Shown here: positions 43,817 through 62,779 of the stretch, in pieces
Numbering within the stretch: position 1 is the stretch's first letter
How the letters are laid out: the number at the start of each line of letters is the position of its first letter
Source: Anaeromyxobacter soli
Lineage (GTDB): Bacteria > Myxococcota > Myxococcia > Myxococcales > Anaeromyxobacteraceae
Length of the DNA: 64,000 nt
Direction of reading: 5' to 3'
Assembly: GCF_022808855.1 (NCBI RefSeq)
Contig: NZ_JAKZLF010000019.1
Location: 1-64,000, forward strand
Notes under the pieces: generated by a model
What the model was told of the DNA's origin: nothing
Seen by the model: the letters and a program-made list of their open reading frames with translations, nothing else
The model's database searches: none
Position numbers and translations under genes: made by a program

Positions 43817-45805
43817 TCAGCGAGTGGCGATGACCTTGAGCGGCGGGTCCCACGCGAGCGGCGGAAGGGACTCCCCCGGCTGCAGCCGATTGTTTGCCGG
43901 TCGGGGATCGCTCGGCAGCGGGGTGTCGCACGGCAGCGTTGGGCGGAACTCCGGCACGATCTCCGCGAACTTGCGGCGAATGTCGTCGGGCGCGGCGTCG
44001 GAGAGCGCCCCGAGCTCACTAACGTGCCGCAACAGCGGCTCCCACGCGTGCGGGCGGAAGCGGCCGACGAAGATCTTGGGGTGCCGCGTCTTGGCGGCGT
44101 TCTCGGAGTGCACCGACAGCTCCTCGAACAGCTTCTCGCCGGGGCGCACGCCGGTGTACTCGATCTCGATGTCCACCCCAGGCTCGTAGCCGCAGAGGGA
44201 GATGAGATCGCGGGCGAGATCCGAGATCTTCACGGGCTCGCCCATGTCGAGGATGAAGATCTCGCCGCCTGCCCCCATGGACCCGGCCTGGAGCACGAGC
44301 TGGCTCGCCTCCGGGATGGTCATGAAGTAGCGCTGCATCTCCGGGTGCGTGACGGTCACCGGGCCGCCGGCCGCGATCTGCTCCTTGAAGATCGGGATGA
44401 CGCTCCCGGTGGAGCCGAGCACGTTCCCGAACCGGACGGTCACGAACCGCGTCCGCGATCGCTGCGAGAGTCCCTGGACGTAGATCTCGGCCACGCGCTT
44501 CGAGACGCCCATCACGGAGGTCGGGTTCACCGCCTTGTCCGTGGAGATCATGACGAAGCGATCGACCCCGTACTGATCCGAGAGGTCGGCGAGCGTCTTC
44601 GTCCCGAAGACGTTGTTCTTCACGGCCTCGCCTGGGTTCCACTCCATCATCGGCACGTGCTTGTGCGCGGCCGCGTGCAGCACCACGTCCGGCCGGTGCT
44701 CCGCGAACACCTTGTGCATCCGGACCTCGTCGCCGACGTCCGCGATGCACGCCACGAGCGAGAGGTCGGGAAAGCGCTCCTGGAGCTCCCGGTGGATCTG
44801 GAAGAGGTTGTTCTCGCCGTGCTCGACCAGCACGAGGCGCTCGGGCCCGAACCGACAGACCTGGCGGCAAAGCTCCGATCCGATGGAACCTCCCGCGCCC
44901 GAGACCATCACCACCCGGCCCGCCATGACCTCGGAGATGGCAGCCATGTCGAGCTGGACGGGATCGCGGCCGAGGAGGTCCTCGATGGCGACCTCGCGGA
45001 GCTGGCTCACCGTGACGCGGCCGTCGATGAGATCACCGATCCCCGGGATCGTCCGGAAACGGACGCCGGCGGCCTTGCAGGCCGCGACCATGCGCCGCAT
45101 TTGCGCGCCGGTCGCCGAGGGCACCGCGATGAGCACCTCGTCCACCGCAAAGTCGGCGGCGACCGTGGGGAGATCCTCGATCGTGCCGACCACGCGCACG
45201 CCGTGGATCTGCGCCCCCCGCTTGTGCGGGCTGTCGTCGAGGACACCCACCGCGTCCCAGCGCTCCTGACGCGCGTGGATCTCGCGGAGCAACGTCTCGC
45301 CGGCATCGCCGGCGCCGATGACGAGAACGCGCTGCCGCCGCTCCTGGCCTGCGGTGTGGAGACGCCGTCTCAGCGCCCGCGTCGCGAACCGCAGACCTCC
45401 GACGAGCGTGATCGCGGTCAACCACTCGATCGCCGGGACCGAACGGGGGAACCCCTCGAACCCGGCGAACAGGAAGACCGAGAAGAGCAGGGTCCCGACC
45501 GTCGTCGCCTGTACGAGTGCGACGAGATCCGGCGCGCCCGTGTATCGCCACAGGCCACGGAAGAGCCCGAGCGCGTGGAAGCTCGCGACGCGGGCGGCGA
45601 GAAGCACTGGGAGCCAGACCGCGAGGTCGATGGCCTGATCCGCGGGGATCCTGAAGTCGAACCGAAGGTTTAGCGCGATGAGGAGCGCCGACGTCCACAA
45701 CGCCATGTGGGCGCCGATGACGGCCACACGACGTGCAGCGACCCTAAGTGCGACCCCCCGGTCAGTCACGGCGGAATGTGTACCAGAAGAAGCTCGGTCA
45801 CGCAT
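43817..45805 (-). CDS. Membrane nucleotide-sugar 4,6-dehydratase (CapD/WbpM type)
   Basis: A 662-residue protein. Four N-terminal helices (about 24-130) are followed by a Rossmann-like domain (VLVIGAGDAGETLLRE) and the catalytic SDR domain (VMVSGAGGSIGSELC) with MISTDKAVNPTSVMGVSK, which has the Met/Lys pair of the WbpM family instead of Tyr-x-x-x-Lys. It should turn UDP-GlcNAc into a 4-keto-6-deoxy sugar for the DegT aminotransferase encoded 48 nt upstream in the same operon. C terminus ends about residue 640 in a flexible tail. ATG 45805. Confidence 0.92.
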   Translation of the reverse strand: MRDRASSGTHSAVTDRGVALRVAARRVAVIGAHMALWTSALLIALNLRFDFRIPADQAIDLAVWLPVLLAARVASFHALGLFRGLWRYTGAPDLVALVQATTVGTLLFSVFLFAGFEGFPRSVPAIEWLTAITLVGGLRFATRALRRRLHTAGQERRQRVLVIGAGDAGETLLREIHARQERWDAVGVLDDSPHKRGAQIHGVRVVGTIEDLPTVAADFAVDEVLIAVPSATGAQMRRMVAACKAAGVRFRTIPGIGDLIDGRVTVSQLREVAIEDLLGRDPVQLDMAAISEVMAGRVVMVSGAGGSIGSELCRQVCRFGPERLVLVEHGENNLFQIHRELQERFPDLSLVACIADVGDEVRMHKVFAEHRPDVVLHAAAHKHVPMMEWNPGEAVKNNVFGTKTLADLSDQYGVDRFVMISTDKAVNPTSVMGVSKRVAEIYVQGLSQRSRTRFVTVRFGNVLGSTGSVIPIFKEQIAAGGPVTVTHPEMQRYFMTIPEASQLVLQAGSMGAGGEIFILDMGEPVKISDLARDLISLCGYEPGVDIEIEYTGVRPGEKLFEELSVHSENAAKTRHPKIFVGRFRPHAWEPLLRHVSELGALSDAAPDDIRRKFAEIVPEFRPTLPCDTPLPSDPRPANNRLQPGESLPPLAWDPPLKVIATR

Positions 45806-45853
45806 AGTGGCAGCCGCGTCGCCCGAGCACAGGACGCGGCCGCAGCCTCGCCG

Positions 45854-47047
45854 TCAGGCCGCCTCGAACCGGTGCCTTCCCCCGGAGCGCCGGTGCTTGC
45901 TGGCGATGTCGGTGACCGCCTCCACGACGCGTGCGACGTCGCCGTCCGTCATCTTGGAGTATATGGGCAGCGAGACGCTTCGGCGGTAGACGTCGAGCGC
46001 CACGGGGAGCTGCTCGGGCGCGTAACCGTAAGTGTCTCGATAGTACGGATGGACGTGGAGCGGGATGAAGTGTACCGAGGCGCCAATCCCGCGCTCCTTG
46101 AGCTCCACGATGAAGCGATCCCGGTCGATTCCGAGCGCTCCTGGGCGAAGCTTCAGGACGTACAAATGGTGCGTGTGGTCACGATCCGTCGACCACGACA
46201 TCAGCTCGAAGGCCCGATGGTCGATGAAGGCGCGGTCGTAGGTCACCGCGATCTCGCGGCGCCGCTCGAGCATCTCGTCGGCCCGCTCCAGCTGGCCCAG
46301 GCCGATCGCCGACGCGATGTCGGTCAGGTTGTACTTGTAGCCCGGCGCGATGATCTCGTAGTACCAGCTGCCCTCGGCCGAGTACCGCTTCCACGCGTCC
46401 CGCGAGATCCCGTGGAGCGACATGAACCGCATCCGGTCCGCCCACTCCGCGTTGGCGGTCACCGCCGCGCCGCCTTCACCCGTCGTGATCGTCTTCGTCG
46501 CATAGAACGAGAAGCAGGAGATGTCGGCGAGAGTCCCGACCTTTCGCCCGCGATAGCGACCCGGGAAGCAGTGGGCGGCGTCGTCGATCACGAAGATGCC
46601 GCGCGGCCTCGCCAGCGCGACGATTTCGTCCATGTCCGCGGGCACGCCCGCGAAGTGCACGGGCATGATCGCCCGCGTGCGCGGCGTGATCGCCCGCTCG
46701 ATGGCGGCGGGGTCCACGTTGTGGTCGGACCCGCGCACGTCCACGAGCACGGGGGTCGCGCCGAGGTACCTGACCACTTCGGCGGTGGCCGCGAACGTCA
46801 AGGTGGGGACGATCACCTCGTCGCCGGCCTTCACGCCGACCGCCTCGAGGGCGAGGTGAAGCGCAGCCGTACAGGAGTTCACCATCACGGCGTGCGGCGC
46901 GCCCGTCGCGGCGCCGAACCGGCGCTCGAATTCCTTCGTCTTCGGGCCGGTCGTGATCCAGCCGGAGCGGAGGGTCTCGACGACGGACTCGACCTCCGCC
47001 TCCGAGATGTCGGGTAACGCGAACGGCAGGAAGTTGGCGGCGCGCAT
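45854..47047 (-). CDS. DegT/DnrJ-type sugar aminotransferase
   Basis: A 397-residue PLP enzyme. The PLP-binding Lys185 is in FYATKTITTGEGG, with DDAAHCF for the cofactor Asp. It likely aminates the 4-keto product of the CapD/WbpM-type dehydratase next to it, giving a 4-amino-4,6-dideoxy sugar (PglE-like); alternative substrates cannot be excluded. First gene of a two-gene operon. ATG 47047 has GGGAGCG upstream. Confidence 0.88.
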   Translation of the reverse strand: MRAANFLPFALPDISEAEVESVVETLRSGWITTGPKTKEFERRFGAATGAPHAVMVNSCTAALHLALEAVGVKAGDEVIVPTLTFAATAEVVRYLGATPVLVDVRGSDHNVDPAAIERAITPRTRAIMPVHFAGVPADMDEIVALARPRGIFVIDDAAHCFPGRYRGRKVGTLADISCFSFYATKTITTGEGGAAVTANAEWADRMRFMSLHGISRDAWKRYSAEGSWYYEIIAPGYKYNLTDIASAIGLGQLERADEMLERRREIAVTYDRAFIDHRAFELMSWSTDRDHTHHLYVLKLRPGALGIDRDRFIVELKERGIGASVHFIPLHVHPYYRDTYGYAPEQLPVALDVYRRSVSLPIYSKMTDGDVARVVEAVTDIASKHRRSGGRHRFEAA

Positions 47048-47328: not shown

Positions 47329-48654
47329 ATGGACATGCAGAAACTCTTCGACGGCATCCAGAATCGCTCCGCGCGGATCGGCATCATCGGGCAGGGCTAC
47401 GTGGGGTTGCCCCTCGGCCTCGTCTTCTGCAGCGCCGGCTTTCACGTCACGGGCTTCGACATCGACGCGAAGAAGGTCGCCACGCTCTCCAGGGGCGAGT
47501 CCTACATTCGCCACATCGGCCCGGAACGCGTCGCCGCGGCCGTCGAGAGCGGGCGGTACGTGGCGACCGACGACTTCGATCGGCTCGCCGAATGCGACGC
47601 GGTCTTGATCTGCGTCCCCACTCCGCTCGGCAAGCACCGGGAGCCCGACAACTCCTTCATCCACTCGACCGCTCGGGAGATCGCGAAGCGGCTGCGGCCT
47701 GGACAGCTCGTCGTCCTCGAGTCCACCACGTACCCGGGAACCACCGACGAGGAGGTGAAGCCCATCCTCGAGTCGAGCGGGCTCGAGTGCCCGAAGGACT
47801 TCTTGCTCGCGTTCTCCCCTGAGCGCGAAGACCCCGGCAACGAGCGGTTCTCGACGCGCTCCATCCCGAAGGTGGTCGGGGGCGTCAACGCCCCTTCGAC
47901 GGAGGCGGCGGTCCAGCTCTACCGCGCCGCGCTCGACACCGTGGTCCCCGTCTCGAGCTCCCGCGTCGCAGAGTCGGGGAAGCTCCTCGAGAACATCTTC
48001 CGCTCGGTCAACATCGCGCTCGTGAACGAGCTAAAGGTCATCTTCGACCGGATGGACATCGACGTCTGGGAGGTCATCGAGGCCGCGAAGACCAAGCCGT
48101 TCGGGTTCATGCCGTTCTATCCCGGCCCCGGGCTCGGCGGGCACTGCATCCCGCTCGACCCCTTCTACCTCTCCTGGAAGGCTGCCGAGTTCGGCTCCTG
48201 GGCGCGGTTCATCGAGCTCGCGGGTGAGGTGAACACCCGCATGCCGGGCTATGTTGTCGAGAAGACCGTCCGCGCGCTGAACGACGACGGGAAGGCGCTG
48301 CGCGGCTCGCGCGTCCTCGTGCTCGGTCTGTCCTACAAGGCGAACATCGACGACGATCGGGAGTCCCCGTCGTACGAGCTCATCGAGCTCTTCCAGCACG
48401 GGGGGGCGCAGGTGGACTACTGCGATCCCTACTTTCCGGTCTCGCACCCGACACGGAAGCACGACCTCGCGATGCGCTCGGTGCCGTGCACGCCGAAGAC
48501 GCTCGCGACCTACGACGTCGTCGTTCTCTCGACGGCGCACGACGAGTTCAAGCGCCCCGAGATCTACGAAAACGTGCCGCTCGTCGTCGACACGCGCAAC
48601 GTCGTCGCCTCGCTGCGAGGCGGCGGTGGGCCGCGGAGGCTCGTGAAGGCATGA
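47329..48654 (+). CDS. wbpA: UDP-N-acetylglucosamine 6-dehydrogenase (WbpA-like)
   Basis: A 441-residue nucleotide-sugar dehydrogenase. Rossmann motif GQGYVGLPLG near residue 22, SYIRHI near 65 (typical of WbpA rather than UDP-glucose dehydrogenase), and the catalytic Cys273 in GLGGHCIPLDPFY. It oxidises C6 to a carboxylate with two NAD+. The following wbpB, wbpD and wbpE homologues support UDP-GlcNAc as the substrate. First gene of the diacetamido-uronate set. A GC hairpin (48665-48683) follows without a U-tract. Confidence 0.9.
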   Translation: MDMQKLFDGIQNRSARIGIIGQGYVGLPLGLVFCSAGFHVTGFDIDAKKVATLSRGESYIRHIGPERVAAAVESGRYVATDDFDRLAECDAVLICVPTPLGKHREPDNSFIHSTAREIAKRLRPGQLVVLESTTYPGTTDEEVKPILESSGLECPKDFLLAFSPEREDPGNERFSTRSIPKVVGGVNAPSTEAAVQLYRAALDTVVPVSSSRVAESGKLLENIFRSVNIALVNELKVIFDRMDIDVWEVIEAAKTKPFGFMPFYPGPGLGGHCIPLDPFYLSWKAAEFGSWARFIELAGEVNTRMPGYVVEKTVRALNDDGKALRGSRVLVLGLSYKANIDDDRESPSYELIELFQHGGAQVDYCDPYFPVSHPTRKHDLAMRSVPCTPKTLATYDVVVLSTAHDEFKRPEIYENVPLVVDTRNVVASLRGGGGPRRLVKA

Positions 48655-48769: not shown

Positions 48770-49723
48770 ATGAAGAACTTTGCGATGACGGGCGTCGGCG
48801 GGTACATCGCGCCGCGCCACCTGCAGGCGATCAAGGATACTGGCAACCGCCTCGTGGCGGCACTGGACCCGCACGACGCAGTCGGCATCCTCGACCGCTA
48901 CTTCGACGACGTCGCGTACTTCCGGGAGTTCGAGCGGTTCGATCGTCACGTCGAGAAGCTGCGGCGCCGCGGCGACGACGAGCGCATCCACTACGTCTCG
49001 ATCTGCACGCCGAACTACCTGCACGACGCGCACATGCGCTTCGCCCTGCGCGTCGGAGCCGACGCGATCTGCGAGAAGCCGCTCGTGCTGAACCCGTGGA
49101 ACCTCGACGCGCTGCAAGAGCTGGAGGCAGAGACGGGGCGGCGGGTGTTCAACATCCTGCAGCTGCGGCTGCACCCGACCATCGTGGCGCTGAAGGAGCG
49201 CATCGCCGCGGAGCCACCCGGCAAGATCCACGACATCGACCTCACGTACATCACCTCGCGCGGGCGCTGGTACGGCGTGTCCTGGAAAGGCGACGTCGAG
49301 AAGTCCGGCGGGATCGCGACCAACATCGGGATCCACTTCTTCGACATGCTCTCCTGGATCTTCGGGAGCGTGCAGGAGATGCAGGTCCACGTGTCCGAGG
49401 CCACGCGCGCGGCAGGCATGCTGCGCCTGGAGCGCGCGGTAGTGCGCTGGTTCCTCTCGCTCGCGAAAAGCGACGTGCCCCAGGCCGCGCGCGACCAGGG
49501 GAAGACCACCTTCCGCTCGCTGACGGTGGACGGTCAGGAGATCGAGTTCTCGGACGGGTTCACCGAGCTCCACACGGCCGTGTACCGGGAGATCCTGGCG
49601 GGGCGCGGCTTCGGACTCGAGGCCGCCCGTCCATCGGTGACCCTCGCGCACGACATCCGCGTCGCCCCAGCCGTGCGGACCTCTCCCCAGCTGATGCATC
49701 CGTTCGTCACCCGAGCGTCTTGA
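48770..49723 (+). CDS. wbpB: UDP-GlcNAcA 3-dehydrogenase (WbpB/WlbA-like)
   Basis: A 317-residue Gfo/Idh/MocA oxidoreductase. N-terminal NAD fold ([14 protein letters not shown]), the family motif ICEKPLVLN near residue 102, and a C-terminal sheet domain with [14 protein letters not shown]. It oxidises C3 of UDP-N-acetylglucosaminuronate. It is 7 nt upstream of wbpD. ATG 48770. Confidence 0.9.
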
Positions 49724-49730
49724 GGAGCCC

Positions 49731-50378
49731 ATGGACTATTTCGTTCACGAGTCTTCGTACGTCGATGATGGAGCTCAGGTCGGCAAGGGCACGAAGCTCT
49801 GGCACTTCTGCCACGTGCTCTCGGGCGCGGTGATCGGCGAACGCTGCAGCTTCGGTCAGAACTGCTCGATCGCCGGCGGCACGACCATCGGCAACAACGT
49901 CAAGGTCCAGAACAACGTCTCCATCTACGAGGGCACCGTCATCGAGGACGACGTCTTCCTCGGCCCGTCCTGCGTGCTCACGAACGTGACGAACCCGCGC
50001 TCCCAGGTGGTGCGCCGCGCGCTCTACGAGAAGACGCTCCTTCGCCGCGGCGCCTCCATCGGCGCGAACGCCACCGTCGTCTGCGGGGTCACGATCGGCC
50101 GTTACGCCTTCGTCGCGGCCGGCGCGGTGGTCGCGAAGGACGTGCCCGACTACGCGCTCGTGGTCGGGGTGCCCGGCCGCTTTGCGGGGTGGATGAGCCG
50201 GCACGGGCATCGGCTTCCCAAACCTGACGGCGAGGGCATCATGCGCTGCCCGGAGAGCGGGCTCCGCTACAGGGAGGTCGAGCCAGGCGTGGTGCGCTGC
50301 CTGGATGTCGACGAGGAAGCACCGCTCCCGCCCGAGCTGGCGGTGGGCAAGGTGGCGTACGACACCTTCAAGAAGTGA
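49731..50378 (+). CDS. wbpD: UDP-GlcNAc3NA N-acetyltransferase (WbpD/WlbB-like)
   Basis: A 215-residue left-handed beta-helix acetyltransferase with hexapeptide repeats through about 15-150 ([28 protein letters not shown]). It acetylates the 3-amino group using acetyl-CoA. The C-terminal extension (about 175-215) with MRCPESG and GVVRCL could be a zinc-ribbon-like tail, which is common in this family. It overlaps wbpE by 4 nt if the first GTG is used. Confidence 0.9.
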
Positions 50379-51502
50379 GAGCGCGCGTGGCTGAGCATTC
50401 CAGGATCCCCGTTCTCGACCTCGCACCGGAGCTGGACGAGGTCGGGCCTGCGCTCGAGGCGGCGTTCCGTCGCGTCATGGCCTCGGGCCACTTCATCCTC
50501 GGGCCCGAGGTCGATGCGTTCGAGCGCGAGGTCGCCGAGTACCTGGGCGTTCGGTACGCGATCGGCGTGAACTCGGGGACCGACGCGCTCGTCATCGCGC
50601 TCCGGGCCCTCGGCATCGGGCCAGGCGACGAGGTCGTGACTTCACCGTTCACGTTCTTCGCCACGCCAGAGTCCGTCAGCGTGGTCGGGGCGACGCCGGT
50701 CTTCGTCGACGTCGATCCCGAGACCTTCAACCTCCGGCCCGAGCTCGTCGCGCGCGCGATCACGCCCCGCACGAAGGCCATTCTTCCCGTCCACCTCTTC
50801 GGCCATGCCGCGGATCTCGAGGCGCTGCAGTCGCTCGCCCGTGCGAAGGGACTCCGAATCGTGGAGGACGTCGCGCAGGCTTTCGGTGGGTCGCTGAACG
50901 GCCGGAAGCTCGGGACCTTCGGCGACGCAGGGGCCTTCTCGTTCTTCCCCTCGAAGAACCTCGGCTGCCTGGGAGATGGCGGGCTCGTCGCGACGAACGA
51001 CGCGGAGGTCGCGGACGCCGCCCGCATGCTGCGCGCGCACGGATCCCGGAAGAAGTACGAGAACGAGCAGATCGGCTACAACTCGCGGCTCGATGCGCTC
51101 CAGGCGGCGTTCCTCCGCGCGAAGCTGCCGCACGTCGACGCGTGGAACGCGGGTCGGCGTGAGGCGGCGATCCGGTATCGCGAGCTGCTCGCCGGAGTGC
51201 CTGGCATCGTGCTCCCCTCGGAGCGCCAGGGGGTGCGGCACGTCTATCATCAGTTCACGATTCGCGTTCTCGACGGGCGCCGCGATGCGCTGAAGGCAGC
51301 GCTCGCCGACGCCGGCGTCGACACGATGGTGTACTACCCGAAGGCGGCTCATCGACTGCCGGTCTACGAGGGGTTCGGAGAGTTCCCGCAAGCCGATGCG
51401 GCGAGCGGCGAGGTGTTGTCGTTGCCGATGTGGCCGCGGATACCTGTCGCCGTTCAGGAACGGGTCGCGAGAGCGCTCCGCGAAGCGAAGGCTCGTGGAT
51501 GA
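50375..51502 (+). CDS. wbpE: UDP-3-keto-GlcNAcA 3-aminotransferase (WbpE-like)
   Basis: A 375-residue DegT-type PLP enzyme. PLP Lys194 is in [14 protein letters not shown], with IVEDVAQ for the cofactor Asp. It transfers the amino group of glutamate to C3, the step between WbpB and WbpD. GTG 50375 overlaps the previous stop (GTGA); GTG 50387 is an alternative. No WbpI-type 2-epimerase follows. Confidence 0.9.
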
Positions 51503-51521
51503 CATCGGAGCGCAGAGCTGG

Positions 51522-52739
51522 ATGAAGCTGGCCTACATGACGGCGTCCTTCCCGTACGGAACGGGCGAGACGTTCCTGATCTCGGAGATCGCCGCGCTGA
51601 AGAGCTTGGGGGTGGAGCTGTACGTGATCCCCCTTTATCCCCGGGGTAGTCGCAGGCCGGACTGGGACCCTGACACCGAGGGGGTCCACTTGCTCGACGA
51701 GGGACTCTGTTCGATCCGCGTTCTCCTGGGCGCAGCCAGCGCTTGTTCAAGGGAGCCTCTCGCCTCGGCGCGCGCCGTCTTCAAGTTACTGAGTGCATCA
51801 ACACGGCACGCGGCGAAGAACCTCGCCGTCGTCCCGAAGGCGCTCTGGGCTTTCCGGGAACTCGAGCGAAGGGGCTGTGAGCATCTCCACGTGCACTGGG
51901 CTGCGACCACGGCGTCCGCCGGCATGGTGGCCGCGCAGTTGGCCGGAATCCCCTGGTCCATGTCATGCCATCGGTGGGATATCCACGAGAACAATCTGCT
52001 CGCTGCAAAGGTGCACTCCGCGGCGTTCACTCGGTTCATTTCCCGTGGGGGCCAGCGCGATGCGGGGCAGCTCGGCGCCGCCGCGGGCCGTACGCATGTG
52101 ATCCCCATGGGAACCTGGGTGCCGCCGTTCGTTCCGCCCCTGCTATGGCCGAGCGGCACTCCCTTCAGAGTCCTGTGTCCAGCGAATCTTCTTCCGGTCA
52201 AAGGTCACTCATACCTGCTGGCGGCGTGTGCGGAGCTCATCGCTGAAGGTCGCGACGTAGAGCTTGCACTGGCTGGCGATGGGCCGCTTCGCGGAGAACT
52301 AGCTGCGCAAGCAAGGCGCGCCGGAATCGCTGGGCGTGTCACGTTTCTGGGGCACCTTCCGCGGCCGGAGCTCCTCAGGCTGTACGAAGACCGCCGGGTC
52401 AACGCAGTCGTGCTTCCCAGCCTGGACCTCGGCGGAGGGGAGCATGAGGGCGTGCCGGTCTCGCTGATGGAGGCGATGGCCTTTGGCGTTCCGGTGCTCT
52501 CGACGCGGACGGGATCCATTCCGGAGCTGCTTCCGGACGACCTCGGTCTCACGGTGCCGCAACGAAACGCATCCGCACTTGCGGAGCGTCTGCGCCTCCT
52601 CATTTGCGACGAGCAGCACTATCGCTCGGTCGGCGCGATGTGCAGGACTCGCGTTCGCGAGGGCTGCTCAGTGGACAGCTCTGCCGCGCGCCTGCTGGCG
52701 TTGATTCGCCGCGACGCACATGAGCCCTGCCGACTCTAA
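51522..52739 (+). CDS. GT4 glycosyltransferase
   Basis: A 405-residue GT-B enzyme. The N-terminal start MKLAYMTASFPYGTGETF is followed by a C-terminal nucleotide-sugar domain: LALAGDGPLRGEL, FLGHLPRPELL and EGVPVSLMEAMAFG (the E-x7-E pair). Adds a sugar to the lipid-linked repeat unit. Base composition is less GC-rich than flanking genes. The stop overlaps the opposite-strand epimerase stop by 4 nt (CTAA). GTG 51495 is a possible earlier start. Confidence 0.9.
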   Translation: MKLAYMTASFPYGTGETFLISEIAALKSLGVELYVIPLYPRGSRRPDWDPDTEGVHLLDEGLCSIRVLLGAASACSREPLASARAVFKLLSASTRHAAKNLAVVPKALWAFRELERRGCEHLHVHWAATTASAGMVAAQLAGIPWSMSCHRWDIHENNLLAAKVHSAAFTRFISRGGQRDAGQLGAAAGRTHVIPMGTWVPPFVPPLLWPSGTPFRVLCPANLLPVKGHSYLLAACAELIAEGRDVELALAGDGPLRGELAAQARRAGIAGRVTFLGHLPRPELLRLYEDRRVNAVVLPSLDLGGGEHEGVPVSLMEAMAFGVPVLSTRTGSIPELLPDDLGLTVPQRNASALAERLRLLICDEQHYRSVGAMCRTRVREGCSVDSSAARLLALIRRDAHEPCRL

Positions 52740-53809
52740 CGAAGGATGCCGGGAGGGGGCTGCCTGAGCTTCTGAACGGCCTTCGTGATCAGCGCACGCA
52801 ACGATTGGCCTCGAGATGCGGCCTGCCTCTCGAAGCGCGCCCGGGCATTCGCAAAATGAACGGCGCGCTCGGGAAATGTCATCTCGAGCGCGGAGAGCTG
52901 TGCGATGTGAAGGCGATGATAGAAGGGGCTCGCCAACGTTCCTTGCGTGTCGTAATTGGACCAATACGGCCCGCAATAACGGGGAAGCCAGCGGCAGAGC
53001 GCGGCCAGCGTGCGGTCGAGGGCGACCGCAACCGCGTCGTCGGGTCGCACCAGAAGGAAGTCGTGCAATCCAAATAGCGAGAAGATCCACCCATTCAAGA
53101 CGGCGTTCTCACGCTGCGACGCAACTTCTTCCAGCACCAGCCCCTCGGGGACATCGCGCGCAACCCCACCGCGATCCACTGGCAGCAGCATGAGCGCAAG
53201 GGCGCGGCGCGCTGCCTCGAGAAACACCTCGTTGCGCGTCACGTCATACGCACGGACGAGCAGTGACGTGCCCTCGCCTTGCGTCATGGACGAATACTCT
53301 GACCGATCCTGGGCACCCAGGAGCGACCACACGGGCCACCCACCCAGCCGGTCCTGGTGCTCGAGGGCCCATTGGGCTCCTGCCAAGAATACATCGCGAT
53401 GCGCAGGCACGCTCCGGCCAGTCGCAAGCCACAGATCCCAGTGCCCCAGGGCTTGCTGGAAGACTGCGGTCGGGTACTGTACCGGGCTTCCGTCAGCAAG
53501 CTGATTGAGAATCAGTCCATTCTCGTCGACTGGGCCCTGCCAGCGAGCTTTCCCGGTTAGATCATTGAAATACCCGGCCAGTTTTCCGGCAACGAACTGT
53601 GAGCCGAGCCCTTGAGGGGCATGCCAGTACCCCCGCCCGCTCAGCATGCCACCCCAATGCCGAAACATCTGAATATAGAGCCGGACACGACTTCCAACGC
53701 GAGAACGCGTCTGGACCCTGCCGGTGGGCGCTGTGTCAGTCACTGAGCTCTCGAGTACCCAAGAAGAAGATCTCGCATTGCACGATGGTCCTTCGCAAAT
53801 ATCAGGCAT
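52736..53809 (-). CDS. D-glucuronyl C5-epimerase-family protein
   Basis: A 357-residue protein whose core matches the C-terminal catalytic domain of glucuronyl C5-epimerases (GLCE_C): YSSMTQGEGTSLLVRAY, ENAVLNGWIFSLFGLHDF and WSNYDTQGTLASPFYHRLHI align with the conserved blocks of the animal heparan sulfate enzyme. No signal peptide or clear membrane helix, so it probably acts in the cytoplasm or on lipid-linked sugars. It would invert C5 of a uronic acid residue. ATG 53809 has GGAG upstream, which decides the start. It is 16 nt after the GT4 gene on the same strand. Confidence 0.82.
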   Translation of the reverse strand: MPDICEGPSCNARSSSWVLESSVTDTAPTGRVQTRSRVGSRVRLYIQMFRHWGGMLSGRGYWHAPQGLGSQFVAGKLAGYFNDLTGKARWQGPVDENGLILNQLADGSPVQYPTAVFQQALGHWDLWLATGRSVPAHRDVFLAGAQWALEHQDRLGGWPVWSLLGAQDRSEYSSMTQGEGTSLLVRAYDVTRNEVFLEAARRALALMLLPVDRGGVARDVPEGLVLEEVASQRENAVLNGWIFSLFGLHDFLLVRPDDAVAVALDRTLAALCRWLPRYCGPYWSNYDTQGTLASPFYHRLHIAQLSALEMTFPERAVHFANARARFERQAASRGQSLRALITKAVQKLRQPPPGILR

Positions 53810-53825
53810 CGCTCCACAGCCGCGC

Positions 53826-54959
53826 CTAGGTTTGCCGGTCGATAGCGCGTCCTGAAAGCCTGCAGTAGAGGTTCTCATACGCCGACGCCATCACGCGTAC
53901 ATCAAGCGCTTCGCTGGCGAGTCGCGACGCAGCGAGTCCCATGGCGCGTCGGAGTGTGGCGTCGGATCCGAGCTCGAGCATTGCGTCGCCAAGGGAACGG
54001 GCGTCCTTCGGACGCGCGAGACGACCCGTCGTGCCCGAACGTACGAGCTCCGGGACGCCGCCCACGGCAGTAGCTGCGACCGGGAGGCCAGCCGCCATTG
54101 CCTCCATGATCGAGACCGGAGTTCCCTCCCAGTCCGAGGACAAGACAAACACGTCGGACGCTCCCAGGAGCGAGGGCATGTCGCGGCGCTCGCCGAGAAA
54201 CCGGACACGATCTCGGATTCCAAGGGCGCCAGCCTGATTCTGGACGCTTGTCAGCAGCGGCCCGTCACCTGCGAGCAGGAGTATCGCCGTGGGGAGCGCC
54301 ACGGTCGTACGGGCAAACGCGTCTATCAGAAGATGCAGGTTCTTCTGCGGAGCGAACCGTGCGACGCACACGAACACCACCGCATCGTCCGGCACCCCCT
54401 CGGACGCGCGCCAGGCTCTGCGGTCCATCGATGGGCTCGCCATGGCTGCCAGGGGAATGCCGATCGGGATGAGCGCCGCCGGTGGGCGGCGATAGAGGAG
54501 TTCGAAGGAACGAGCTACCTCGGCGCTGATCGCAACCGGCGCCACTCCCAAGCGAAATGCAAACCGGTACGCGACGCGATGAAGGGCCGGGACCTCTTGC
54601 CGGGCGATGTTATGGACTGTGTGAACGCACGCAATTTCACGCTTCACCAGCGACGGAAGCACGTACGACAGCGCGAACCGATGAGTGTGCACCACGTCTG
54701 GCCGGAGTTCGCGGAGTGTTCGCCAGACTGCGATGGCGCATGAAGGGTCCGGGCCGGGTCGCTTCGAGAGATAGTATGACCGGACCCCGCCCCGGTGGAG
54801 TTCCGATTCGATGATCGACCCTGCTGCCGGGTAGAGACTCAAGACGGAGGCATCGACCCGCCGGGGATCGAGCGCGCAAAGGAGATTGAGCAGCATGCGC
54901 TCGGCACCGCCGGTGCCCAGATTGGGAATCACATGCACCAAGCGAAGACGGTCAGTCAT
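53826..54959 (-). CDS. GT4 glycosyltransferase
   Basis: A 377-residue GT-B enzyme with VIPNLGTGGAERMLLNLL at the N terminus, LLAGDGPLLTSV and EGTPVSIMEAMAAG (E-x7-E). Transfers a sugar from a nucleotide donor to a lipid-linked intermediate. Strong Shine-Dalgarno GGAGGA before ATG 54959. Composition is lower in GC than the outer parts of the locus. Upstream is Wzx (36-nt gap), downstream the epimerase. Confidence 0.92.
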   Translation of the reverse strand: MTDRLRLVHVIPNLGTGGAERMLLNLLCALDPRRVDASVLSLYPAAGSIIESELHRGGVRSYYLSKRPGPDPSCAIAVWRTLRELRPDVVHTHRFALSYVLPSLVKREIACVHTVHNIARQEVPALHRVAYRFAFRLGVAPVAISAEVARSFELLYRRPPAALIPIGIPLAAMASPSMDRRAWRASEGVPDDAVVFVCVARFAPQKNLHLLIDAFARTTVALPTAILLLAGDGPLLTSVQNQAGALGIRDRVRFLGERRDMPSLLGASDVFVLSSDWEGTPVSIMEAMAAGLPVAATAVGGVPELVRSGTTGRLARPKDARSLGDAMLELGSDATLRRAMGLAASRLASEALDVRVMASAYENLYCRLSGRAIDRQT

Positions 54960-54995
54960 GCATCCTCCTCGCCTGGAAGACGTCATTTGACGGGC

Positions 54996-56291
54996 TCATG
55001 AAGGATCGATGCTCGCGGACGAACGCTGCCCACCCGAGGTCGGCTCCTCCGGCGGGAGGCTCTGAGCTCGGGTGAGCGAGCGCTCGGCGCTTCGCAAGAC
55101 TGCGGCGCTGCCCAGGATCTGTGCCACTGACCCGATGCCCGCACCCAGCGCGGCGCCATGCAGGCCGAGAACCGGTACCGCGAGAGCGCACCCGCCCCAC
55201 GTCACCGCCGCGGCGAAAAGGAAGAGGATTACCTGGATGCGGAGACGCCGCGCCATGGTCATGGAGTATCCAAGGAACGAAGCCCCGTAGGACAGGCCAG
55301 CGGCGATGCTCAAGGAGACGAGTACGCTGGCACCCTGGGCATAGTCGGGTGTGTACACGATCGAGAGAATCTGACGTCCCGCCAGGAAGCTGAGGGCGGC
55401 GCCCGCCAAGCCGATCCCGAGTCCCAGACCGAAAAGCCGCCACGTGATCCGGCGGAAGTCCGCCACCTCTCCGGACGAGAAGGCCCGCGCGATGCGCCTG
55501 ACCGTAGCGGTGGCGATGCTGCTGACCAGGTTCGCTCCGACGTTCGTGAGCTGGCTCGCGGCTGCGAAGATCCCGAGCGCGCTGATGCCAAGGTGTCGGT
55601 CCACGAACAATCGAGGAAGGTTGGTCTGAACAGCGACGAGTCCCATCACCACCCCGAGCGGGAGGCCGAGCGTAGCGAGGGCGATGACCCCGCGGAGACC
55701 AGAGCCCTTCGCGGACCACCGCGGCTCTCCGGCATTCCAGCGCGACACGACGACGAGCGCGGCGAGCGGGCCGAGCCCGCTCGCGAGTGCCGCGATCGAG
55801 GCATGCCGCCACACGCTCATGGCAGCCGCAGCGGCGCCGAGCGCCATTGCCCCGTTCACGAACAGTGCCTTCGCGACCCGATCCATGCGCTCCTGGCGCT
55901 GGAGCCATCCGAGGTGGATGTCGACGAGAGAGTCCAGTGCCTTCGCGACGCCGACGGCAACCATGACTGCCAGCCTCTCGCCTCGATAGCCGAGCGCGAG
56001 CACGATGAGGATGGTCGCAACGAGCGCCCCGGTCGTGAGCAGGCGGCGCGCCGTCAGATAGTCGCGAAACGACACTTCGTCGTCGCTCGCGGACACGAGC
56101 AGTTGCCGAAGCTGAAGGGTCGAAAAGACGAATACGGGGGTCGTCACCGCCCACGCGAGAGCGAGTTCTCCGACCATGCCCTCATGGCCGAGCTTCGCGA
56201 CTGCGATGGTGATGCCCCACTGCGAAAAGCCGAACGCGACGTTGCCCGCCAGCGTCCATCCGACGAGCCGGTAGAGGGACGAGGACCGCAT
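54996..56291 (-). CDS. Wzx-type lipid-linked sugar flippase
   Basis: A 431-residue polytopic protein with about 12 helices, of the MATE-like polysaccharide flippase superfamily. It moves the undecaprenyl-linked repeat unit across the inner membrane. The ATG at 56291 is immediately preceded by a GTG (56294); the pair overlaps the polymerase stop, so translation is coupled. Assignment rests on topology and position rather than a catalytic motif. Confidence 0.82.
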   Translation of the reverse strand: MRSSSLYRLVGWTLAGNVAFGFSQWGITIAVAKLGHEGMVGELALAWAVTTPVFVFSTLQLRQLLVSASDDEVSFRDYLTARRLLTTGALVATILIVLALGYRGERLAVMVAVGVAKALDSLVDIHLGWLQRQERMDRVAKALFVNGAMALGAAAAAMSVWRHASIAALASGLGPLAALVVVSRWNAGEPRWSAKGSGLRGVIALATLGLPLGVVMGLVAVQTNLPRLFVDRHLGISALGIFAAASQLTNVGANLVSSIATATVRRIARAFSSGEVADFRRITWRLFGLGLGIGLAGAALSFLAGRQILSIVYTPDYAQGASVLVSLSIAAGLSYGASFLGYSMTMARRLRIQVILFLFAAAVTWGGCALAVPVLGLHGAALGAGIGSVAQILGSAAVLRSAERSLTRAQSLPPEEPTSGGQRSSASIDPS

Positions 56292-57613
56292 CACGGGAGC
56301 TCGGGCGCGGAGACGGGTGAATCGGAACTCTTGGTCGAGAGCGCGTCATCGCGACCCACGGCCAGCTCCGGAGCTGCCAGAGCGACCCCCATGACCACGA
56401 AGAACAACTCCTGCACACGCTCCCCGAAGAAGGACGGGACGGACAGGCCATTGACCAGCCACCCCAGGGTCGTCGCCGAGCACGCCATGCCCAGAACCCT
56501 TGCACCCGGGCTCTCGAGACTCCGAAGCAGTCTCAGAAAGCGTAGGCACGCAAACGCGAACACGATCGTACCCGCGAGGCCATGGACCAAGAGCAAACCA
56601 AGGTAAAGATTGTCGAGAGGAGCAGAGTCCGCCGAGCGGAGTCCAAAAAGCGGATTCTGAGTGAATAGCTCCCAGTTCGTCTGCCAGAAAGGCAAGCGGC
56701 TTTCGAAGATGGACTCTCCGGACCCATCCCCTCGGGCCTCCATGAGCTGCATGAGCCGCTCGAGCGGGACCTCCGGCAACACCGAGTACAATCCAACCAG
56801 GACCACAGTGCCCGCCACCACAAATCCCAACAATCGACGGCGACCCGCCCTCCACAGGAGGTACATGAGCACCGTGAGCGCGCCCGCGTATGCACCTCGC
56901 GACCAGCTAATCGCGATGAGCCACGTTGCCGCGAACGTCGCTCCCGCGAGCAGGAGCCGCGCTCGAGAACGGTCGGCCTCCACCAGGAGTGACCCTATCA
57001 CGGCGACGCCCAGAACCCCGAACGAGCCGAGGACGTTCGGCTGCCCGTCGAAGGTCCCATACGCACGACCAAGATCGAGCGCTTCGAGCACGAGGTCGAA
57101 GTCAGCCTTGCGAGTGTAGTTGGCCGAGAGGAACCCGTATATCGGTTCCCACTTGAAGAGTTGCGCCGTCGCGACTCCGGCCATCAGGACGGTCAGGAAA
57201 GCCAGGAACCAGGAGAAGGAGCGGCGCTGCGTGTCGGTTACACGAGCGCCGGCCGTCAGCCCGAGCAGCATGACGAAGGGCAGGCGGAACGTCCCCCACG
57301 CGCCGGCGAGCGCGCCGCCGACCGAAAGCCCCGGGGCAAAGATCAGCGACCAGAGAGCGGAGACGAGTGAGAAGCCAGCGAACCACCATAGGGGACGCAT
57401 GGCCGGGTTCGACACCGCCACACTTGCCGCATCCGGATCGCGACGCACCGTCAGGTAGACCAGTGGCAAGAGAAGCACCTGGTCCAGCTTGACCCCGCGG
57501 CTCGCAAACTCGAAGTCGATCGGCAAAGGTGGCGCGAACACGACAATCGCGCAGAAGGCGGCCAGGAACGCCAAAGCCCACCGTCCGCCGATGCCAGGGA
57601 CTTCGGCGGTCAC
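56291..57613 (-). CDS. Wzy-type O-antigen polymerase/ligase
   Basis: A 440-residue membrane protein with about 11-12 helices and a large loop in the second half (about 300-350, with GESIFESRLPFWQTNWELF before a NPLFGLR motif) typical of O-antigen polymerase/ligase proteins. It polymerises repeat units in the periplasm. GTG 57613 follows GAGGAGC. Overlaps the Wzx start by 1-4 nt. Confidence 0.82.
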   Translation of the reverse strand: MTAEVPGIGGRWALAFLAAFCAIVVFAPPLPIDFEFASRGVKLDQVLLLPLVYLTVRRDPDAASVAVSNPAMRPLWWFAGFSLVSALWSLIFAPGLSVGGALAGAWGTFRLPFVMLLGLTAGARVTDTQRRSFSWFLAFLTVLMAGVATAQLFKWEPIYGFLSANYTRKADFDLVLEALDLGRAYGTFDGQPNVLGSFGVLGVAVIGSLLVEADRSRARLLLAGATFAATWLIAISWSRGAYAGALTVLMYLLWRAGRRRLLGFVVAGTVVLVGLYSVLPEVPLERLMQLMEARGDGSGESIFESRLPFWQTNWELFTQNPLFGLRSADSAPLDNLYLGLLLVHGLAGTIVFAFACLRFLRLLRSLESPGARVLGMACSATTLGWLVNGLSVPSFFGERVQELFFVVMGVALAAPELAVGRDDALSTKSSDSPVSAPELP

Positions 57614-57848
57614 TCGAACGCTCCTCGATCCAGCAAGCCACGTACCTCTGAAGCCACCGCACGGCGTCGAAGACGCCGTACTGCGCCGCGAGGGGTACGA
57701 GCCGACCGTTGGCCGACGCAAGCGTCACCGGGCTCCCGTGCATCCTCGCGCGTCCAAACGCGTCCGAGCAGGCTCCCCCTCACGTCCTGATTACTCGCAT
57801 TCTCACGGTCGAAGTCGTAGCAGAGCATGCCGCCACTCGGGTTGCATC
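57614..57848. other. Intergenic, possible gene remnant
   Basis: A 235-nt gap between two minus-strand genes. The minus strand has a short ATG frame starting at 57743 (MHGSPVTLASANGRLV, then QYGVFDAVRWLQRYV), with coding-like codon use for about 43 codons before it enters the polymerase gene out of frame. Another frame starting at 57828 (MLCYDFDRENASNQ) looks equally protein-like. A frameshifted remnant of a small gene is possible; I cannot name it. Confidence 0.3.
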
Positions 57849-59078
57849 TCAGCCTCCAAGCGCCGCCAGGAAGCGCCGCGAGAGAACGTCGTAGGTGTGG
57901 TGCTCGAGGATGAACTTCCGGCCTCGCGCGCCCATCTCCGCGCGCTCCCCCGCGCTCGTCGCCATCAATCGATGAACCCCGTCCGCGATCGCGCCAGGGT
58001 CTTCGGGGGCCACGGATATGCCGCAGCGAGCCTCGGCCACCAGGTCGTTCCCGGCCTCGATCGCGTGGAGCACCGGCTTCGCCGCCATCATGTAGTCCAT
58101 GAGCTTGTTCGGACTCACGCCGAACCGGTAGAGCGGGCTGCGGTGCCAGCCGATGAACAGGGCGTCCATCGCGGCGAGCAACGCGGGGATCGTGCGCTTC
58201 TTCACCGGATCCAGGAAGATCAGGTTCTCGAGCCCGAGCCTCGCCGCCCGGGCACGCAGCGCCTCCTTCTCGGGACCGTGTCCGACGAGCACGAACCCCA
58301 CCGGCGTCTGGACGACGCGCGCTGCCGCCTCAACCAGCACCTCCAGGGCGTTCGCGACGCCATGCGCGCCAGCGTAGCCGATCAGAAAGGGGCATCGCCT
58401 CCGAAAGGCCTGGAGGGCGGAGGCGGCCTCCGTGGGGAGGGGCTGGTCGCTCGCTTCCCATTCCGCGACGTCGATTCCGTTCGCCACGTAGACGAACTTG
58501 CCGGGCGCGAGCCCGTGGGCGCGCATGTGAGCCTCCGCTCGCGGCAGCATCGAGACGACGCGATCGGCGCGGCGATAGGCGAAGTCCTCCGCCACCTGCA
58601 TCGTCGCGATGAAGGGATGCCATCGCGACATGTTACCGAGCTCCATCGGCGACAGCGGCCAGAGGTCGTGGACCTCGTGGACGAAACGCGCGCCGTAGCG
58701 GCGCGCAATCCTGTGCGCCGGGAATGCATCCAGCGGGTAGGTCGAGGACGACACCACCGCATCGGGCCGGAACTCCGCCGTCACGAACCGTTCGTGCCGA
58801 TAAAGCCCCGACAGGAACGCGAGCATGTTCCGGATCCGACCCACGCCATTGCCGTGGTACTCCCCACCAGGCAGCCAGCAATACTCGACGCCGTCGAGCA
58901 TCTCATGACGAGGCACGGTCGAGGGCTCCGGCTGGGCAGCCCGGAGGTGCGAGAACGACGAGGCCACGACGCGCGTCCGGTGACCAAGGCGGTTCCAGGC
59001 GCGTGCCATGTAGAACGGACGGTACTCCATGCCGTGCTGCGTGGAGCCCGCGTAATGATTGATGAGAAGTATGTTCAT
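57849..59078 (-). CDS. GT4 glycosyltransferase (WbuB-like)
   Basis: A 409-residue GT-B enzyme starting MNILLINHYAGS and containing VHEVHDLWPLSP, a C-terminal FVLVGHGPEKEALR, and SPNKLMDYMMAAKPVLHA, the layout of WbuB-type transferases for N-acetyl-6-deoxy sugars. Divergent from the phosphoglycosyl transferase gene, with a 190-nt shared upstream region. Confidence 0.9.
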   Translation of the reverse strand: MNILLINHYAGSTQHGMEYRPFYMARAWNRLGHRTRVVASSFSHLRAAQPEPSTVPRHEMLDGVEYCWLPGGEYHGNGVGRIRNMLAFLSGLYRHERFVTAEFRPDAVVSSSTYPLDAFPAHRIARRYGARFVHEVHDLWPLSPMELGNMSRWHPFIATMQVAEDFAYRRADRVVSMLPRAEAHMRAHGLAPGKFVYVANGIDVAEWEASDQPLPTEAASALQAFRRRCPFLIGYAGAHGVANALEVLVEAAARVVQTPVGFVLVGHGPEKEALRARAARLGLENLIFLDPVKKRTIPALLAAMDALFIGWHRSPLYRFGVSPNKLMDYMMAAKPVLHAIEAGNDLVAEARCGISVAPEDPGAIADGVHRLMATSAGERAEMGARGRKFILEHHTYDVLSRRFLAALGG

Positions 59079-59268
59079 CGAAAGTTCATCGCCTCGACGT
59101 CCGCCGGAGGCGCCCGCCCCCTGTCGCCGAGAAGAACAGTTGGTGGCACGGTCCGTTGCCCCCGTGGTAATGGCTCTCGCGTACTGGGCGCCGGTCCTCA
59201 GGGACCATCAACCTCCGTGCGATGAGAGTCGCCGGAACGCGATAAGCTGATCGTGCGGAGTATCTCTA

Positions 59269-59868
59269 GTGACACCATATGTGGTCACCAAGCGAGCCGT
59301 CGACGTGTCGGCGTCGCTGATCGGTCTTGCGCTGCTCTCGCCGCTTCTCGTCGCCGTAGCGGTGGCCGTCAAGCTGGACAGCCCCGGCCCTGCTTTGTTC
59401 CGGCACGAGCGCATCGGCCGCGGCAGACGGAAGTTTCTCCTTCTCAAGTTCCGCTCCATGACGCACGGCGCAAGCGGTCGAGACGTGACGGTAGCAGGCG
59501 ACGCTCGTGTCACACGCGTCGGGCGCCTGCTGCGGCGAACGAAGATCGATGAGCTCCCACAGCTCTGGAACGTGCTCGTGGGCGACATGAGCCTCGTGGG
59601 CCCACGCCCCGAGGTCGACCGTTACGTCCGAATGTTTGCGAGCGACTACGACGACATCCTCCAAGTCAGACCCGGCATCACCGATCTCGCGGCGATCGAG
59701 TACCGCGACGAGGAGCGGATCCTGGCAGCGAGCCGCGATCCGGACGCGGAGTACTGCCGGATCGTGCTGCCAGCGAAGATCGCGCTCTACCGCAGATACC
59801 TCGCCGAGCGGTCGCTCCGAACGGATTTCGTCATCCTCGCCAGAACGTTCGCAGCCATTCTGCGTTAG
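59269..59868 (+). CDS. Small phosphoglycosyl transferase (PglC-like initiating enzyme)
   Basis: A 199-residue monotopic sugar transferase. A re-entrant hydrophobic helix (about 12-35, ending SPLLVAVAVAV) is followed by SPGPALFRHERIGR, LLKFRSM and the catalytic Asp-Glu of KIDELPQLWNVL. The size is that of PglC rather than long WcaJ/WbaP enzymes. It puts the first sugar phosphate on undecaprenyl phosphate. GTG 59269 follows CGGAG. Its likely donor is the sugar made by the CapD-type/DegT pair at 43.8-47.0 kb. Confidence 0.92.
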   Translation: MTPYVVTKRAVDVSASLIGLALLSPLLVAVAVAVKLDSPGPALFRHERIGRGRRKFLLLKFRSMTHGASGRDVTVAGDARVTRVGRLLRRTKIDELPQLWNVLVGDMSLVGPRPEVDRYVRMFASDYDDILQVRPGITDLAAIEYRDEERILAASRDPDAEYCRIVLPAKIALYRRYLAERSLRTDFVILARTFAAILR

Positions 59869-61141: not shown

Positions 61142-62779
61142 TCACTTCCTTGCGGAGATGACTACGGCAACACCGCTCAAGACAATTCCGGCGGCACCGA
61201 GGAAGATCTGAACGACCTCCGACCGCGAGAAGTTGCGCTCCGGTACGATCACCGATGAGCCCGGCTCCACGTTCAGGTCCGATGCGTACTTCTTCGTCTC
61301 ACCGTTCGGCGTCACGACGCGTACGCTGGAAAGGCCCTGCGCGAACCGATTCCGGCCGCCCGCGAGCGACAGGTACTGCTGGATCCCGAAGTTCGGGTTG
61401 TACGGGTACTCGCCGGCCTTGAACACAGCACCCTCCACGAGGATGCTCCGCCTCTTGAATGGCACCACGAGCGAGTCGCCCAGCTCGACGGGACGGTCCG
61501 CGCTCAGATCGCGGACCATCACGAGCTGGTAGAGGTTGACGGGCAGTGACGTCCCGTTGCGCAGCACGTAGGCGCCGGTGAGATCCGCGAGGGGTCCGAC
61601 ACCGCCAACGCGATCGAGGAGCGTCCGGACCGAATCGCCCTGGACGAACGGCAGGCGCCGCGTCGCTGTAGCATCGTTCGGCGCGGTAGCGCCGGCGATC
61701 GCGCCGATAATCATGACGGACCGCTGAAGGTCCGCGAACGCCGGAATCCTGACGCTGTCTTCGTGCTGAATGGTGGCGGTCGGGAGGGACCCGTCCGCCC
61801 CGAAGGGAAGCAGCGTCTGGTCCTGGCGGTCCTCCTTCGATCGTCGTACTAGGCTGATCGGCAGGCGCTGGGTCGCGGTCGGCGCGAGTCCACCGGCGAG
61901 CTCGACGAGCTCTGCGAGGTCACGCTTTCCCGTCAGCTCGTAGCGCCCTGGGCGATTGACCGCGCCGTCGACCGTCGCAGCAAGCTCCTCGAACGGCACG
62001 CGCACCACGTCGCCGTCGAGGAGATACGGGTTCTGCGCCACGTCGCCGGTGAGCGAGTAGACCAGCAAGTCGGCGCGGAGCTCCTTGCCGTCTCGCCGCC
62101 GGATCTCGATGCGGCGCCTCGAGGCGTTCGGCCCGAAGCCACCCGCGCGTGCGATGAGGCTTGCGACGCGATCGAGCGCGCGAGCAGGGTATGAACCCGG
62201 TCGCTTCACGTCGTCGACAACCTGCACGAGGAACGTCCGCGGCTCGGCGAGCGTAACGTCGAAGCTTAGCCGCGGGTAGAAGCGCGCCACGGAGTCACGC
62301 ATGATCCGCCGCGCCTGAGACAGGGTCTTCCCGCCGAGATCGAGAAAGCCTGTCTTAGGGACGAACGCGCGGCCTTCCAGATCCACGGTCACGCGCAGCT
62401 TGAAGTTCTGGACGCCCCAGAAGTTCAGCTCGAGGATGTCCCCGGGGCCGCACACGTACGCGTCGGGATCCAACGGCGCGTCGATCGCAGGAACCCTGGC
62501 GGCGAGCGAGCGGTCGATGCCCGAGACCCCCATCCCTGTCTGGTCCCGTGGGGCAACCATTTCGGATCCGTCGCGGGTGTGATCCCGCTCGCGATCCAGG
62601 TCAGGAACCGTGAACGGCGGCTGATACGGGGACGCGCTTCCGGGCGCGGTTTCGCCGGGCGTCGTGGGGAACGTTCCGGGTGACTGCAACGTCTGCGCGA
62701 GCGCGACGTTGCTCATCCAAAAGACGGGCTGGCAGCAGAGCAGCACAGCCACCGCGCGACCGAAAGTCGTACGAAGCAT
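61142..62779 (-). CDS. OPX polysaccharide export protein with SLBB repeats, second copy
   Basis: A 545-residue exported protein. Signal peptide about 1-29 (VALAQ). The export domain starts YVCGPGDILELNFWGVQNFK, and at least three SLBB-type blocks follow (VQVVDDVKRPGSY, ATVDGAVNRPGRYEL, ILVEGAVFKAGEYP). It ends with a membrane helix (about 520-540), unlike classical lipidated Wza. It lies just upstream of, and is coupled with, the Wzz gene. ATG 62779. Confidence 0.9.
   Translation of the reverse strand: MLRTTFGRAVAVLLCCQPVFWMSNVALAQTLQSPGTFPTTPGETAPGSASPYQPPFTVPDLDRERDHTRDGSEMVAPRDQTGMGVSGIDRSLAARVPAIDAPLDPDAYVCGPGDILELNFWGVQNFKLRVTVDLEGRAFVPKTGFLDLGGKTLSQARRIMRDSVARFYPRLSFDVTLAEPRTFLVQVVDDVKRPGSYPARALDRVASLIARAGGFGPNASRRRIEIRRRDGKELRADLLVYSLTGDVAQNPYLLDGDVVRVPFEELAATVDGAVNRPGRYELTGKRDLAELVELAGGLAPTATQRLPISLVRRSKEDRQDQTLLPFGADGSLPTATIQHEDSVRIPAFADLQRSVMIIGAIAGATAPNDATATRRLPFVQGDSVRTLLDRVGGVGPLADLTGAYVLRNGTSLPVNLYQLVMVRDLSADRPVELGDSLVVPFKRRSILVEGAVFKAGEYPYNPNFGIQQYLSLAGGRNRFAQGLSSVRVVTPNGETKKYASDLNVEPGSSVIVPERNFSRSEVVQIFLGAAGIVLSGVAVVISARK

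Follow-up and report, generated by a model that had tools for sequence, protein, structure and literature searches.

The window analysed here, a stretch of 64,000 nucleotides of Anaeromyxobacter soli (contig NZ_JAKZLF010000019.1), contains a gene whose product resembles the animal heparan-sulfate epimerase and which lies in a bacterial polysaccharide locus. This raises the question of which sugar such a protein may act on, and at which stage of polysaccharide synthesis. The gene lies in an open frame from 52736 to 53878 on the minus strand, within which the start codon is uncertain (GTG 53743, or alternatively ATG 53809 or ATG 53878). A purine-rich stretch was found before both ATG 53809 and GTG 53743. 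The start at ATG 53809 given in the original prediction is plausible, and so is GTG 53743, from which a product of 335 amino acids is counted; similarity to the relatives sets in near 53680.

The membership of the window protein in the heparan-sulfate glucuronyl C5-epimerase family (GLCE, PF06662) is firm. The frame matched the Pfam family PF06662 (C5-epim_C) with 112.5 bits (E 2.2e-32, cut-off 23.3), and in a profile search it was the sole match in the 5.3 Mb genome. In the phmmer search against PDB sequences, human and zebrafish GLCE were the only matches up to E 1, the best being 2e-15. The protein contained the motifs MTQGEGTSLLVRAY, VLNGWIFSLFGLHD, and NYD..SPFYHRLHIAQL, in agreement with the GLCE-type conserved blocks first claimed for it.

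The AlphaFold2 model of nucleotides 52739–53743 was built from an alignment of 34 sequences (the window and homologous loci; plasmid and phage rows were left out). Its mean pLDDT was 82, values exceeded 90 over most of the core, and it was almost all-helical. The eight best Foldseek matches were all GLCE entries (E 3e-10 to 1e-9). In VIA-align, GLCE entries filled the five top rows with Z 28.8–29.6, against 16.3 for the next family, and human GLCE was aligned with the model at Z 29.6 and an rmsd of 2.6 A over 265 residues. The key residues of GLCE are listed as E499, Y500, N510, Y560, and Y578, and the roles used in our comparison were taken from the same source (PMC13308652); the equivalences to human GLCE come from sequence alignment, not from side-chain superposition. 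Four of these five catalytic residues were kept in the window protein, where the five places are occupied by Glu, Val, Asn, Tyr, and Tyr, respectively. Numbered from GTG 53743, E206 corresponds to human E499 and Y275 to human Y578. The catalytic Glu and Tyr on which the original prediction had staked its case were thus present together with N510, Y560, and the GLCE fold, and the active-site comparison that it proposed departed from GLCE at Y500. This place contained Val in the window, Ala in the nearest relative (locus L070), Cys in the actinobacterial pairs, and Tyr in a sister relative (L007) and most other homologues, and several forms paired with glycosyltransferases have lost Y500. Since Y500 varies in other members of PF06662 too, its loss limits a claim of identical catalysis more than one of family membership. 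Human R563 was replaced by Gln. The beta-hairpin and beta-sandwich domains of animal GLCE were not present in the window protein, and they appear to be missing from other short bacterial homologues as well.

No signal peptide or membrane helix was seen by hydropathy in the N-terminus for either start (maximum 0.28), which bears out the absence of a signal peptide noted earlier. The homologues were sorted by a simple hydropathy threshold into soluble forms and forms with a signal or membrane segment, and the soluble state was found to be common to a clade of them; most homologues outside the soluble group have signal peptides or membrane anchors. A maximum-likelihood tree was computed for 45 proteins. 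Of its 20 soluble rows adjacent to glycosyltransferase genes, 19 shared one clade with a support of 90/84, which is moderate and below the starred level of the tool. The clade included one further row (L035), adjoining an aminotransferase gene, and L018, whose N-terminus is borderline in hydropathy, fell outside it. The soluble/anchored label changed 3 times on the tree versus about 15 times in shuffles, a kind of test that near-copies inflate. The window protein and that of L070 formed a pair at 100/99, joined by L007 at 99/96.

The epimerase gene was found between two GT4 glycosyltransferase genes, as had been stated, and the true start of the convergent one is probably about 51522. A GT4 gene directly upstream of the epimerase was present in the window, L070, L007, L018, and the Micromonospora and Streptomycetaceae loci, and the ends of the two genes often overlap. 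The neighbour of the epimerase was a GT9 gene in L071 and L072 and a GT4 gene in L073, and in L074 a GT4 homologue lay directly downstream. The GT4 scan of loci with anchored or secreted forms, which is blind to other glycosyltransferase families, found no such neighbour. Because an export signal is missing and the branch is tied to glycosyltransferase genes, action in the cytoplasm before export of the repeat unit is probable. The window protein likely represents a soluble cytoplasmic branch of the GLCE family that works at the lipid-linked stage; the conserved pairing strengthens the earlier proposal of a reaction on cytoplasmic lipid-linked units.

The genes of the locus are listed in Table 1. 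The minus-strand run begins with the distal GT4 gene, continues through the Wzy-like gene, the Wzx gene, and the proximal GT4 gene, and ends with the epimerase; it converges with a plus-strand run of wbpA-wbpB-wbpD-wbpE-GT4. The initiating phosphoglycosyltransferase (PGT), glycosyltransferase, flippase, polymerase, chain-length, and export genes occur together as in a Wzx/Wzy locus. The Wzx/Wzy assignment made earlier thus held for the gene set and for Wzx, whose score is just over the cut-off, and was marginal for Wzy, whose score falls just below it. The diacetamido-uronic acid genes that had been read in the locus were confirmed: WbpA, WbpB, WbpE, and WbpD occur together, which is the set of the UDP-GlcNAc3NAcA (Wbp) pathway, the WbpE assignment leaning partly on gene order. 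These enzymes lead to UDP-GlcNAc3NAcA, which WbpI turns into UDP-ManNAc3NAcA (PMC10622841). No wbpI was found in the window. The genome contained two Epimerase_2 genes elsewhere, and the one on contig C3 fits WbpI (323 bits) about as well as UDP-GlcNAc 2-epimerase (316 bits).

Table 1. Genes of the polysaccharide locus and catalytic codons of the epimerase gene, in window positions.
Feature	Position	Strand	Basis
WbpA-type UDP-sugar 6-dehydrogenase, not UDP-glucose type	47329..48654	+	sequence comparison
WbpB 3-dehydrogenase	48770..49723	+	PDB 3o9z WbpB, 368 bits
WbpD-type N-acetyltransferase	49731..50378	+	PDB 3mqg, 226 bits
WbpE-type aminotransferase	50375..51502	+	PDB 3nyu WbpE, 295 bits; other aminotransferases higher (2oga, 347 bits)
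GT4 glycosyltransferase converging on epimerase	51396..52739	+	Pfam; 44% homologue adjoins epimerase in L070
C5-epimerase gene, GLCE family, compact alpha-domain form	52736..53743	-	PF06662, GLCE fold match, start sites
Tyr codon = human GLCE Y578, FYHRLHI motif	52919..52921	-	sequence alignment
Tyr codon = human GLCE Y560	52952..52954	-	sequence alignment
Asn codon = human GLCE N510, VLNG motif	53093..53095	-	sequence alignment
Val codon at human GLCE Y500 place	53123..53125	-	sequence alignment
Glu codon = human GLCE E499	53126..53128	-	sequence alignment
GT4 glycosyltransferase directly upstream of epimerase	53826..54986	-	Pfam; same place held by homologues, 43% in L070, 30% in L007
Wzx-type flippase	54996..56294	-	PF01943, 28.9 bits, just over cut-off 28.2
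Wzy-like polymerase/ligase	56291..57721	-	PF04932, 29.9 bits, just under cut-off 31.7
GT4 glycosyltransferase	57849..59078	-	Pfam
Initiating phosphoglycosyltransferase (Bac_transf)	59269..59868	+	PF02397, 188 bits

Further genes were observed around this set. A FlaA1/CapD-like dehydratase, a DegT aminotransferase, a GT4 glycosyltransferase, and the PGT (window 43817–47047 and 57849–59868) recur, in part or whole, in the GLCE loci L025, L027, and L071 with about 38–55% identity, which suggests that the repeat begins with a bacillosamine-type sugar. Two Wza-like export genes were present at the ends of the locus (40213–41760 and 61142–62839), the former adjoining a low-molecular-weight tyrosine phosphatase gene (41337–41921). 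The rmlD/B/C/A genes were located at the window end and immediately beyond it (L050:58–3541), and rhamnose is a possible sugar. The G+C content of the locus was about 64–70%, versus 70–78% over most of the remaining window, and among eight genomes of the same genus none contained a PF06662 or WbpB match at the thresholds used. The absence from these genomes and the lower G+C fit horizontal acquisition of the epimerase locus.

Single-protein scans of genome and viral contigs found no relative, and a three-sequence profile search yielded 37 loci. The nearest relative, L070, belongs to the phylum of L007, which is other than that of the window, and its epimerase was 53% identical to that of the window. 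Its cassette contained wbpA (49% identity to the window), wbpB (54%), wbpD (52%), and wbpE (67%), together with a Wzy gene, the two GT4 genes adjoining the epimerase (43 and 44%), a further GT4 gene (36%), a PGT gene (38%), and an Epimerase_2 gene. The product of the latter looks like a WbpI orthologue by sequence, since it scored 687 bits to the solved UDP-2,3-diacetamido-glucuronate 2-epimerase (acting on UDP-GlcNAc3NAcA) and 340 to the next family. L018, a metagenome-assembled genome (MAG) of Oscillibacter, contained wbpD-wbpA-wbpI-GT4-epimerase, all in one direction; its wbpA was the only full-length UDP-sugar dehydrogenase gene found in that genome, which may be incomplete. In L074 and L025, wbpB/D/E and a 2-epimerase gene were present near the GLCE gene. 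In L007, wbp genes were not found near the epimerase, nor was WbpB found in the genome.

GLCE-family proteins were also observed in other settings. Bradyrhizobium phage ppBeUSDA76-1 (OP596613.1; L006:4428–5585) encodes one with a signal-peptide-like N-terminus, annotated as hypothetical and 29% identical to the window protein (E 3e-5). A short frame, possibly a remnant, lies between transposase genes on a plasmid of Deinococcus radiophilus (L005:14941–15720). Two genomes of the phylum of the window (L002 and L003) encode proteins of about 740 amino acids with an N-terminal hydrophobic stretch and a GLCE-like domain, beyond which the chain continues for about 450 residues. In Lagierella (L021:8613–10840), the gene immediately upstream of an anchored GLCE gene encodes a 2-epimerase that is 46% identical to the WbpI of L070.

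The linkage of GLCE loci to sugar pathway genes was compared with a background of 60 glycan loci around PGT genes, hand-chosen from two phyla only, one per genome; GLCE loci were counted whether inside glycan clusters or not. wbpB was present in 4 of 45 GLCE loci and in none of the 60 background loci (p=0.03), and a 2-epimerase gene in 13 of 45 and 7 of 60, respectively (p=0.04), these p values being nominal as five comparisons were made over related loci. For wbpA, wbpD, and UDP-glucose dehydrogenase (Ugd), no difference was found between the 45 and the 60 loci. Among 395 genomes of the L007 phylum, WbpB was found in 7 of 15 GLCE genomes and in 69 of 380 others (p=0.013), only 2 of the cases lying within 10 kb. 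With these two cases and a nominal difference from the background, a general GLCE-Wbp linkage is not claimed. As the statistical linkage of GLCE loci to wbp genes is suggestive only, the case for the substrate rests mostly on the gene orders of L070 and L018.

The explanation that we prefer, with a little more confidence than doubt, is a soluble cytoplasmic uronosyl C5-epimerase that acts on an undecaprenyl-linked repeat and whose preferred substrate is a 2,3-diacetamido-2,3-dideoxy-D-uronate. It has to be weighed against the unlikely though substantial alternative that the cytoplasmic enzyme converts ordinary D-glucuronate in the lipid-linked repeat to L-iduronate, the wbp genes supplying another residue. 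Epimerases of glucuronate define the family, L007 has a paired GT4 gene and yet no WbpB in its genome, and glucuronate is available, as the source genome has a UDP-glucose dehydrogenase gene at C11:77237. This gene, however, lies about 13 kb beyond the window end, outside the cluster read; moreover, the closest relative, L070, keeps the wbp set, and the one full-length dehydrogenase found in L018 belongs to the WbpA type. A Ugd-type gene was found near none of the GLCE loci read, but the background loci rarely have one either (2 of 60), and this argument was dropped. Excluding glucuronate through a missing Ugd also fails, as the genomes of the window and of L070 each have such a gene; it holds for the L018 MAG alone.

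The other explanations differ in the place or the nature of the reaction. The enzyme might work on completed polymer, either periplasmically or extracellularly, as AlgG-type enzymes do, by an unrecognised export route; many GLCE homologues have signal peptides or membrane anchors and GLCE itself uses polymer, but an export signal is missing for every plausible start and the soluble homologues cluster and are paired with cytoplasmic glycosyltransferase genes, which makes this improbable. Action on a nucleotide sugar (UDP-uronate) instead of a glycan would agree with the missing export signal and with a gene sitting among nucleotide-sugar genes. Its probability is equally low, as GLCE, DS-epimerase, and Agl32 require the uronate to be in glycosidic linkage and flanked by other sugars (PMC13308652) and the conserved pairing is mainly with glycosyltransferase genes. 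Replacement of Y500 in the window/L070 pair and in the actinobacterial pairs would suit a GLCE-fold protein that has lost epimerase activity and assists the GT4 enzyme by binding glycan or as a scaffold, or performs other chemistry, e.g., that of a lyase. The C5-flanking Glu/Tyr pair, N510, and Y560 are kept across most soluble forms examined, however, and we regard this as the most improbable of the explanations.

In comparison with known systems, animal GLCE (PDB 6HZZ, 4PXQ) shares with the window protein the catalytic alpha-helical fold, PF06662, and E499/N510/Y560/Y578, whereas the window protein lacks the signal peptide and the beta-hairpin (dimerisation) and beta-sandwich domains, has Val for Y500 and Gln for R563, and is encoded in a bacterial Wzx/Wzy locus. 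The mannuronan C5-epimerases AlgG/AlgE also perform uronate C5 epimerisation in bacterial polysaccharide; they have a fold other than that of GLCE, are periplasmic or extracellular, and were absent from the matches found for the window protein. The four enzymes leading to UDP-GlcNAc3NAcA are encoded 1–6 kb from the window epimerase, and L070 has all five genes of the pathway with WbpI; unlike this arrangement, the known Wbp pathway has no C5-epimerase, and WbpI is not in the window. The characterised bacterial GLCE-family epimerase, RED65_08024 of Bermanella marisrubri, is described as turning GlcA of desulfated heparan sulfate into IdoA (PMC4432689, PMC13308652, citing Raedts 2013), and it is likened to the window protein by description. 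In Halobacterium salinarum, Agl32 inverts C5 of a uronate while the glycan is still linked to its lipid and has yet to be translocated, and it requires a sugar on either side of that residue (PMC13308652). By analogy, it is a precedent for such a reaction, sharing with the proposed window enzyme the lipid-linked glycan stage and a single alpha-helical domain. Agl32 reportedly has none of the GLCE catalytic residues, and its fold is described as nearer to that of AGE (PMC13308652), whereas the window protein keeps four of the five and has GLCE as its best fold match; the window enzyme is therefore closer to GLCE than Agl32 is.

For the preferred cytoplasmic diacetamido-uronate epimerase, we infer the following activity, timing, substrate, and product. 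The epimerase, in which the catalytic alpha-helical domain would be all that is left of GLCE, would depend on the Wbp enzymes for UDP-GlcNAc3NAcA. The PGT would start the undecaprenyl-linked repeat, and one or both adjacent GT4 enzymes would add the uronic acid. After this transfer and before flipping by Wzx, the Glu/Tyr pair of E206 and Y275 would take H5 and re-protonate C5 from the other face, whereby the uronic residue would change from the D to the L form. This would yield 2,3-diacetamido-L-iduronate or, where a 2-epimerase has acted beforehand, as the relatives containing WbpI suggest, the L-guluronate. Wzx would then flip the unit and Wzy would polymerise it. The diacetamido-uronate substrate is favoured but unproven; Val at the Y500 place, a UDP-glucose dehydrogenase in the genome, L007 without wbp genes near its epimerase and without WbpB in its genome, the weak wbp linkage, and the lack of wbpI in the window count against it.

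Our broader proposal, which we advance tentatively and as somewhat less than an even chance, is that, while the undecaprenyl-linked repeat is still inside the cell, a GLCE-family enzyme inverts C5 of its GlcNAc3NAcA or ManNAc3NAcA residue and so supplies 2,3-diacetamido-L-iduronate or L-guluronate; this fold is not known to act on such a class of substrates. Gulo-type diacetamido-uronic acids have been reported in bacterial antigens (PMC3210612), and no C5-epimerase for diacetamido-uronic acids was named in the literature searched. The cytoplasmic GLCE branch with its GT4 and wbp genes provides a definite enzyme candidate together with an organism for testing it. If the proposal is true, the Wbp pathway would have a C5-epimerase to complement it, and the fold of the animal heparan-sulfate epimerase would work on bacterial lipid-linked oligosaccharides, which would be useful for the enzymatic synthesis of L-uronic glycans.
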